A DNA stretch of 64,000 nucleotides from Arcticibacterium luteifluviistationis (GTDB lineage Bacteria > Bacteroidota > Bacteroidia > Cytophagales > Spirosomataceae), in the NCBI RefSeq assembly GCF_003258705.1, contig NZ_CP029480.1, forward strand, positions 4,526,001 to 4,590,000, written 5' to 3'. The notes beneath the pieces were generated by a model. It was not told the origin of the DNA and ran no database searches. It was given only the letters and a program-made list of their open reading frames with translations. Every line of letters begins with the position of its first letter. The stretch's first letter is position 1. Shown piece by piece: positions 23,439 through 47,088 of this stretch. The translations under genes were made by a program, and so were the position numbers.

Positions 23439-23469
23439 TTGGAAAATAGGTGAGTTGTTTTTACATTTG
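23439..23469 (+). promoter_or_regulatory. Promoter of a candidate small RNA
   Basis: TTG (23439-23441), a 20-bp spacer and TACATTTG (23462-23469) match the Bacteroidota consensus. No start codon with a useful frame follows before the next terminator. The 264 bp between hflX and this promoter are very AT-rich and otherwise empty. Confidence 0.65.
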
Positions 23470-23473
23470 TTGC

Positions 23474-23625
23474 CTAGACGCCACACACTAAAAAATATTT
23501 GAGTTTTAAAACTCATGAAAGTTTAATCCGCTTTGTTTCACGTTCGCGTGATGCACATGGATTATTAGGAAAGCACGTAAGTCGGAATCCCTGTCACTAA
23601 AATTGAGGCAGGGATTTTATTTTTA
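23474..23625 (+). ncRNA. Candidate small RNA of about 150 nt upstream of smpB
   Basis: The predicted transcript runs from a good promoter to a terminator hairpin. It holds a GAGTT-TTAA-AACTC hairpin (23501-23514), and a longer arm closed by TAATCC/GGATTA (23524-23529 with 23559-23564). Inside that arm is a perfect TCACG-TTCG-CGTGA hairpin capped by a UUCG tetraloop (23538-23551). The last hairpin is followed by a T-rich tail. No protein of useful length is encoded. I do not recognise it as 6S, SRP, tmRNA or a riboswitch. Its next neighbour is smpB. Confidence 0.5.
23586..23625 (+). terminator. Terminator of the candidate small RNA
   Basis: AATCCCTG (23586-23593) pairs with CAGGGATT (23609-23616) across a 15-nt loop, and a T-rich stretch TTATTTTTAT follows. 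The smpB promoter overlaps it. Confidence 0.6.
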
Positions 23626-23633
23626 TAGCTTTG
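23603..23633 (+). promoter_or_regulatory. Promoter of smpB
   Basis: TTG (23603-23605), a 20-bp spacer and TAGCTTTG (23626-23633) match the consensus. Transcription would start near 23639, about 12 nt before the smpB ATG at 23651. This rules out a longer smpB frame starting at 23603. Confidence 0.7.
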
Positions 23634-23650: not shown

Positions 23651-24106
23651 ATGGCAAGTAACATTTCGAACAAAGTTGAGATTAAAAACAGGAAGGCATC
23701 TTATGAATATCAGTTCATAGATACTTTTACTGCTGGTATTGTATTAAGGGGTACCGAGATGAAGTCCATACGAATGGGCAAGGCTAACATTTCTGATGCT
23801 CACTGTTATATTACCAATGGAGAGCTTTTTATTAAGAATCTTCATATTTCGCCCTATGAGTTTGGTACCCATTATAACCATGAACCTCTAAGAGAAAGAA
23901 AGCTATTATTACAGCGTAAAGAGCTAAAGAAGCTAGAGAATAAGCTAAAGGATGTGGGCCTTACTATTATTCCAACTAGGCTTTTTATTAGTGATAAAGG
24001 TTTAGCTAAGTTGAATATCGCTTTGGCTAAAGGAAAGAAGCTTTATGACAAAAGAGAGAGTATTAAGTCTAAAGACACTGAAAGGCAGGAAAGTAGAAAG
24101 TTTTAG
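23651..24106 (+). CDS. smpB: SsrA-binding protein SmpB
   Basis: The 151-residue protein binds tmRNA and brings it to stalled ribosomes. It has the SmpB landmarks NRKASYEYQF, GTEMKSIRMGKANISDAHCYI, HNHEPLRERKLLL-like segment and the basic C-terminal tail. The start at 23651 fits the promoter at 23603-23633 and gives the normal length. No tmRNA gene is seen nearby. Confidence 0.95.
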   Translation: MASNISNKVEIKNRKASYEYQFIDTFTAGIVLRGTEMKSIRMGKANISDAHCYITNGELFIKNLHISPYEFGTHYNHEPLRERKLLLQRKELKKLENKLKDVGLTIIPTRLFISDKGLAKLNIALAKGKKLYDKRESIKSKDTERQESRKF

Positions 24107-46326: not shown

Positions 46327-47088
46327 TTATTCGCACACAAGTTGGTTGGCATATTGTAATTTGACTTTTGAAAACGTATCCCAACCTTTGACTGTCATAA
46401 TCTGTTTATAAAACACTTTCAGCTTATGAAGTTTCTGTTCAATATTTTCAGCTTTCCCAAATTCAATAATATGATTTCCTAAAACGGGGACAAATTTGAT
46501 TTGTCCACTTTTACTGACATCCATTTGAGATATTTGAGCATCCCAAAAGTCGTCTGTCTTAATGACCTTTATAAGTTCCATTAATGAAGCGTCATCCTGT
46601 TTTTGAAGTGATTTCTTTTTATAAAAATAATCTCCAGAAAGTAAGAGGACCCTTTCTGCGTGATATTTAGATAGTGGGAAAAAGTGACCATTTTCATTTA
46701 AATATTGGTCATTTCTTGAAATGTAAGAGGTAAGTCTAGCATATGGAATGTAAGGCTTTACTTTAATGTGGAGCATTCCTTTAAGGTCGCCATAAACTTC
46801 GCAATACTCTATTTGGTTTATTTGTTGAACACGCTCTTCGAGTTTAGCTAAGTCAATTTCAGAAAGCACTTTTCCCTCAAGAGGCTCTAAACCATTTTTA
46901 GTAATATATTTCTTAACATCTTCTTTAGAGATATAAGACTGGTCATTGCTTTTTATCATCTTAATGTCAATTCCTTGGCATCGCTGTACCCTAGACTTCT
47001 CATTTACAAAAGCAATAAGTGATAACAAAACCACTAAGCCGATTCCTGCAAAACCGTATTCCTTGAAATTGTTTAATGCTCGTTTCAT
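46327..47088 (-). CDS. ftsQ: Cell division protein FtsQ/DivIB
   Basis: The 253-residue protein has a single N-terminal helix (YGFAGIGLVVLLSLIAFV) and a periplasmic part with a POTRA-like start (QRCQGIDIKMIKSNDQSYISKEDVKKYI), LPLEG-type loop and the FtsQ region IEYCEVYGDLKGMLHIKVKPY and FFPLSKYHAERVLLLSG. It joins the FtsBL complex. Position just before ftsA supports the call. Confidence 0.88.
   Translation of the reverse strand: MKRALNNFKEYGFAGIGLVVLLSLIAFVNEKSRVQRCQGIDIKMIKSNDQSYISKEDVKKYITKNGLEPLEGKVLSEIDLAKLEERVQQINQIEYCEVYGDLKGMLHIKVKPYIPYARLTSYISRNDQYLNENGHFFPLSKYHAERVLLLSGDYFYKKKSLQKQDDASLMELIKVIKTDDFWDAQISQMDVSKSGQIKFVPVLGNHIIEFGKAENIEQKLHKLKVFYKQIMTVKGWDTFSKVKLQYANQLVCE

Follow-up and report, generated by a model that had tools for sequence, protein, structure and literature searches.

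A putative trans-acting small RNA of Spirosomataceae with an invariant seed complementary to the start of an MltD-like LysM gene

We identified a small RNA gene at positions 23439–23620 (plus strand) of the analysed 64,000-nucleotide stretch of the Arcticibacterium luteifluviistationis genome (hereafter the window), which comprises a Bacteroidota-type promoter, an RNA of ~145 nt with three hairpins, and a terminator. Judged from sequence comparison, it is probably a trans-acting, GibS-like antisense sRNA that blocks translation initiation of an MltD-like LysM envelope gene. Its invariant seed is complementary to the start-codon region of this gene, the complementarity is conserved, and RNA and target gene co-occur among related genomes. 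We infer that the RNA is transcribed, that it represses the target, and that it thereby tunes envelope or peptidoglycan turnover. Trans-acting sRNAs with an extended seed at a start codon are already known as a kind; this RNA, its target, and its clade are new to the searched literature and to Rfam, in which we found no account of it.

Gene organization and structure of the RNA

The RNA is intergenic, in the order minus-strand GTPase gene, small RNA gene, smpB. The GTPase gene, on the other side of the RNA from smpB, has the domains GTP-bdg_N/M and MMR_HSR1 and is presumably hflX. The promoter of the RNA consists of a −33 element TTGG (23439–23442), a 19-nt spacer, and a −7 element TACATTTG (23462–23469), all on the plus strand, an arrangement (TTGG-N19-TACATTTG) that we take to be of the Bacteroidota −33/−7 type. 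A sigma-70 scan, which does not cover this type, listed no E. coli sigma-70 promoter at this place. Among the 28 relatives with upstream sequence (in the 29th, a contig end truncates the locus, and it was left out of this count), TAnnTTTG occurs 80–109 nt 5′ of TTAGG in the core in 25; the exceptions are CAnnTTTG in two genomes and only a more distant match in one. The RNA itself, as predicted from the promoter and terminator positions and the match to covariance model R1, spans approximately 23475–23620 (plus strand). Its intrinsic terminator, a hairpin followed by a T-run (23584–23618, plus strand), is supported by sequence, fold, and alignment and is kept in relatives; it was absent from the output of a simple terminator scan, presumably because its loop exceeds the 8 nt allowed. 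3′ of the terminator, a promoter-like TAGCTTTG (23626–23633, plus strand) precedes smpB (PF01668 by Pfam; 23651–24106, plus strand), which is apparently a separate transcription unit; an equivalent TAnnTTTG lies 50–110 nt 3′ of the core in 22 of 29 relatives.

No useful frame was found over the ~145 nt, and no frame is conserved in relatives, since lengths vary and only the seed and the structure are kept. A reading of the core as a peptide (ATGGATTATTAG, M-D-Y-stop) was rejected, the ATG being missing in two relatives (L035, L036). By its sequence, the gene thus shows the combination expected of a trans-encoded sRNA, namely its own promoter and terminator and no coding potential. The initial annotation had described a consensus promoter, ~150 nt without a useful frame, three hairpins, a terminator, and an smpB promoter starting only after them; these elements and their coordinates were recovered here, with the promoter assigned to the Bacteroidota type.

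The predicted fold is more stable than that of shuffled sequences (z −2.73; 3 of 200 shuffles equally good). Hairpin 1 (GAGTTTTAAAACTC, 23501–23514) and the inner part of hairpin 2 (TCACG-TTCG-CGTGA, 23538–23551) each have two-sided changes in 4 of 4 modelled pairs, with 91.2% and 82.4% of alignment cells paired, respectively. These two variable helices (helices 1 and 3) have two-sided compensatory changes in all eight pairs among 17 sequences, with a covariation score of 0.219 compared with 0.094 (sd 0.013) after shuffling (0 of 500 as high) and 0.028–0.049 in slid controls; the alignment was fitted to the model, so that the counts lean towards it. It contained 17 of the 29 sequences, leaving out eleven with another 5′ half (Emticicia-type genus) and one cut by a contig end. 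RNAalifold detected hardly any covariation in the raw alignment because the hairpins are misaligned there. The closing stem of hairpin 2 (TAATCC, 23524–23529; GGATTA, 23559–23564) is made of six invariant pairs, and in the terminator 2 of 12 pairs vary, on one side only (17 sequences). The UUCG-capped stem within TAATCC/GGATTA arms that had been annotated is present here, with a loop that is not conserved in relatives. The covariation proposed as a check on this element was found in the other two hairpins; the TAATCC/GGATTA arms never vary and speak neither for nor against pairing. In the eleven Emticicia-type sequences a different 5′ stem replaces hairpin 1, and closing stem, linker, and terminator are kept.

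A 35-nt stretch of the RNA (23558–23592, plus strand; TGGATTATTAGGAAAGCACGTAAGTCGGAATCCCT), composed of the 3′ arm of the closing stem, the linker, and the 5′ arm of the terminator, is identical in 29 of 29 relatives and has variable flanks. This identity and the eight compensated pairs exceed what chance would give. This stretch contains the 22-nt putative pairing seed UUAUUAGGAAAGCACGUAAGUC (23562–23583, plus strand), identified by pairing computations as complementary to the MltD-like mRNA start. We propose from the structure model that the seed is mostly single-stranded and presented by the two variable hairpins and the terminator. Within 23559–23593 an alternative pairing is conceivable, between GGAUU in the closing stem and AAUCC in the terminator arm; both segments are invariant.

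Distribution in the Spirosomataceae and relation to smpB

BLAST searches recovered the RNA from 29 of 222 genomes of the family, representing 8 of 36 genera. Covariance model R1, built from 17 of the 29 sequences, retrieved the same 29 genomes at E ≤ 8e-12 and gave weak matches in three more (E 0.004–0.017) as well as a second one in the genome of the window. Of 390 genomes of the order, 10 contain the 21-nt core without a mismatch, and each of these belongs to the same family; allowing up to three mismatches added nine genomes, each only at three mismatches. In a named genome collection, 25 stretches contain the exact core; they derive from Emticicia, Lacihabitans, Jiulongibacter, Leadbetterella, and one Spirosoma fluviale MAG, and include further Cytophagales, Cytophagaceae, Spirosomataceae, and Bacteroidetes records. 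Five weak matches of the covariance model among 395 genomes of the phylum (E 0.006–0.024, besides the genome of the window) were discarded as chance-like, the alignments of three of the five having been judged chance. Inspection by eye of the region before smpB in 25 relatives' loci for divergent copies found the core in 3 and no core in 22. Phage records had no match to the RNA. The conservation in sister genomes that had been suggested as a check was thus found for part of the family.

The RNA had initially been reported as belonging to no recognised family, and this holds. At the gathering threshold, Rfam returned two tRNAs for the whole window and no match to the RNA; at E ≤ 10, the 541 bases around it yielded eight matches far below gathering scores (best E 0.39), none of them meaningful. 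Membership in 6S RNA or another Rfam family was accordingly without a covariance-model match. Neither smpB nor the RNA-bearing genera are mentioned in the available part of PMC11109978.

An smpB motif lies within 300 nt downstream of the RNA in 28 of the 29 genomes. In the remaining one (G170), the RNA precedes a TonB-receptor-plug (SusC-like) gene, and it is therefore a gene of its own. These data bear on the reading that the RNA is a cis-acting leader or attenuator of smpB, in which GGAUU would pair with AAUCC of the terminator in a terminator/antiterminator switch that permits read-through into smpB. The segments AAUCC, GGAUU, AAUCCC, and GGGAUU are mutually complementary and invariant in the 17 aligned sequences, and smpB follows directly in 28 of 29 relatives, both in favour of this reading. 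A leader should always be located upstream of its gene, however, and the copy in G170 stands before an unrelated one; moreover, smpB has its own promoter-like element past the terminator in 22 of 29 relatives, and pairing with a target accounts better for the long invariant linker than an smpB attenuator does. We consider regulation of smpB in cis improbable.

Complementarity to the start of a LysM gene beside pgi

We searched the 222 family genomes with the pattern TTAGGAAAGCACGTAAGT, allowing up to two mismatches, and with the reversed pattern as control. Outside the sRNA itself, the 29 RNA-bearing genomes gave 18 matches (6 with the reversed control), and the 193 others gave 33. When the contexts of the 18 were read, several proved to oppose, on the antisense strand, the first codons of a single gene located behind pgi in several genera (ATG GAC TTA CGT GCT TTC/TTT), and five lay at the start of this gene or in its geneless leader; pattern search and gene contexts thus pointed to the target without a prior assumption. 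A further pattern search gave 33 non-sRNA matches among the 29 genomes with the RNA, compared with 13 among 32 without it; 13 of these 33 were at the target start or, in G014, at the place of the former ATG. Many of the pattern matches were set aside as chance, several being inside long open frames or antisense to them.

In the genome of the window, the putative target (G000:C1:745206, minus strand) has 604 codons and encodes two LysM domains. The adjacent pgi was confirmed by Pfam in all five loci tested (G000, G171, G170, G014, G134). The protein is 29% identical over 619 columns to an SLT- and LysM-containing (MltD-like) paralogue of the same genome and itself has no SLT domain match. It reads IYNKYQ opposite VQESAL of the paralogue, in which we take the catalytic glutamate to lie, and this residue thus seems to be lost. 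The target is read here as a degenerate, putatively secreted relative of the lytic transglycosylase MltD.

A close orthologue (E ≤ 7e-72) is encoded in 22 of the 29 RNA-bearing genomes compared with 0 of 32 tested among the 193 RNA-less genomes of the family, a co-occurrence that may reflect inheritance of both in one clade. Distant homologues are present in all 61 genomes (best E in the 32 RNA-less genomes, 2e-29). Two of the seven RNA-bearing genomes without the close orthologue are 63% and 81% complete. The other five (G137, G156, G019, G166, G171) are at least 95% complete and have an unchanged seed, so further targets should exist. Two candidates are a leader in G156 (−30.8) and, in G024, the beginning of a gene for a probably secreted protein (ATGAAAAACTTACGTGCTTTC).

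In duplex computations, the start regions of the 22 orthologues pair with the seed at a mean energy of −23.75 kcal/mol, and none of 300 dinucleotide shuffles of the seed was as low (mean −9.72, sd 1.65). In scans of ±1000 nt around the target, the best pairing windows cover the start codon. The best site in the window's own genome (−34.4 kcal/mol) lies right after the AUG, with 21 consecutive pairs, including G-U, just after it; the duplex of seed and site has an energy of −28.6, opening costs are 5.3 (RNA) and 5.7 (mRNA), and co-folding of seed and mRNA pieces retains the duplex. For comparison, the start regions of 60 ORFs of the window pair with the seed at −11.9 on average (sd 3.3, minimum −21.1). 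When both strands of the full 64 kb were scanned in 2556 windows, the lowest value besides the RNA's own complement was −29.1, so energy alone singles out no target. The site is degraded in G024 (−14.0) and weaker in six Lacihabitans-type genomes (−19.7 to −20.8).

Conservation of the site is at the nucleotide level. From −30 to +60, the 21 orthologues compared share a single conserved segment, ATG.acTTACGtgC.tT; G014, which lacks an ATG at that place, was excluded. All 21 have TTA as codon 3 and 20 of 21 have CGT as codon 4, in starts that were located by a pattern itself requiring TTACG; in the bodies of the same genes, TTA makes up 29.7% of leucine codons and CGT 11.7% of arginine codons. 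The pattern fits 21 of 22 orthologues, 17 of them at the homologous position and four in frame no more than 21 nt away from it; these genes are related and do not represent independent events. G014 fails it, its ATG being replaced by TAG, yet ACTTACGTGCTTTC is kept, and a second site a little downstream pairs at −35.3 kcal/mol. As the seed never varies, compensatory change between RNA and target cannot be seen. Taken together, an accessible conserved seed is complementary to a distant target, with conservation on both sides.

It is also unlikely that the linker instead binds a protein or another RNA and that the match to the MltD-like gene merely reflects a conserved N-terminal peptide, M-D/N-L-R-A-F. 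M1, L3, and R4 are indeed invariant and A5 is nearly so (19 proteins aligned of the 21), and the target gene is absent from seven RNA-bearing genomes. A conserved peptide would not account for synonymous positions whose fixation runs counter to codon usage in the gene bodies, for the nucleotides kept in G014 outside such a peptide frame, or for the site-bearing leader that survives without the gene in G171 (behind pgi) and G155. A possible link to ribosome rescue was initially raised from the position next to smpB, the sole point in its favour; a role of the RNA as a tmRNA fragment or as a partner acting with SmpB is most implausible. The tmRNA is encoded elsewhere in the genome (G000:C1:228455-228828), and the RNA has no tRNA-like domain, tag frame, or RF00023 match. 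Neither the rRNA operon nor tmRNA contains a 9-nt match to the core, exact or complementary, and the best duplex of the core with the rRNA operon (−17.6) does not surpass those with three shuffled operons (−15.3 to −17.5). Nor is the G170 copy next to smpB.

Several observations concern the flanks of the target gene. AGTATAGATTCACTC is located 3′ of the gene in 19 of 22 loci (L248–L269), followed by a terminator-like hairpin, and lies within 130 nt of the stop codon in 18 of 21. AGTGAAY is found 13–16 nt before the ATG in 15 of 21 target leaders and is partly complementary to AGTATAGATTCACTC. The AGTATAGATTCACTC region is possibly a 3′UTR-derived RNA. At two loci, L308 (G155:C200) and L241 (G171:C2), the anti-seed leader and a AGTATAGATTCACT-like 3′ part with a terminator-like hairpin persist and the target coding sequence is gone.

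Proposed mode of action and related antisense elements

According to the model that we favour, antisense control of the LysM gene in trans, the two variable hairpins and the terminator would expose the invariant seed UUAUUAGGAAAGCACGUAAGUC, which would pair with the first codons of the LysM protein's mRNA, deny the ribosome access to the start codon, and thereby repress the protein. As established in other bacteria, the first codons fall within the footprint of the initiating ribosome. Translational repression is therefore likely, as for GibS, and the complementarity of the invariant middle of the RNA to the message start suggests that it probably switches the message off.

GibS of Bacteroides thetaiotaomicron is described as the first RNA encoded in trans in the Bacteroidetes for which targets were identified, and Bacteroides is reported to have no obvious Hfq or ProQ homologues (PMC7366714). 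GibS resembles the RNA described here as an intergenic Bacteroidota sRNA of ~145 nt with a terminator and a long, conserved, single-stranded seed that pairs with a translation initiation region. The seed is in the 5′ portion of GibS and just before the terminator in this RNA, and GibS targets metabolic genes, whereas the target here is an envelope LysM gene (PMC7366714). The Rfam scan indicated no sequence relation, and the RNA described here is confined to some members of a single family. In the part of PMC12870237 available, Ern0160 of Enterococcus faecium, an sRNA of an unrelated organism, represses mRNAs of LysM-domain proteins by direct interaction; it was tested by experiment, while this RNA is known from comparative analysis. 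RNA–RNA pairing also controls a lytic transglycosylase gene in Staphylococcus aureus, in which, as far as the accessible text of PMC9217812 describes it, the vigR 3′UTR of an mRNA activates isaA by pairing within the 3′ part of its coding sequence. In the present case, by contrast, an independent sRNA would act at the start codon of a degenerate homologue. The case would tie an sRNA to a cell-wall protein, and its invariant seed, named target, and nucleotide-frozen start-codon site make it falsifiable in genera other than Bacteroides, of which cultured strains exist. It is also a hint that long seeds (about 20 nt) could be widespread in the phylum.

More tentatively, and with a lesser probability than the antisense function itself, the RNA could be the hub of a clade-specific antisense network, in which sibling sRNAs share UUAUUAGGAAAGCAYG, anti-seed RNA genes with terminators and also geneless leaders serve as decoys, and seed, envelope mRNA, and decoys titrate each other. 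Six further places, each in an RNA-bearing genome, carry the 16-mer TTATTAGGAAAGCAYG without a mismatch; the 193 others lack it. Two copies, one at 46742 in the genome of the window (L138, G000:C1:45800-47800, 943–995) and one in G156 (L177, G156:C1:3678131-3678146, minus strand), stand before terminator-like hairpins and are candidate sibling sRNAs; the other four, in three Emticicia-type genomes and one Lacihabitans-type genome, are inside another long stem. Anti-seed intergenic units with terminator-like hairpins were recognised by eye at six loci (L315, L317, L319, L310, L311, L312), and were found only with one mismatch allowed. In G019 and G167 they lie next to dapD-like and HTH_3 genes, and the G167 unit has a clear TTTGG / TTACATTTG promoter. 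The unit of G135 adjoins an HTH_3 gene, and those of G136, G141, and G143 adjoin a Band_7 gene (domain tested in G136). These units may serve as decoys for the RNA.

A second conserved intergenic element is present in Emticicia- and Lacihabitans-type genomes (L140, L174, L175, L176, L179, L180); an Rfam scan of four of these six loci gave no match. It has a long stem containing TTATTAGGAAAGCA(C/T), followed by ATTAYGATGTCCCA (GATGTTCCA in L179), and carries repeated TTGAGTGAA upstream; L140 also has a terminator-like hairpin.
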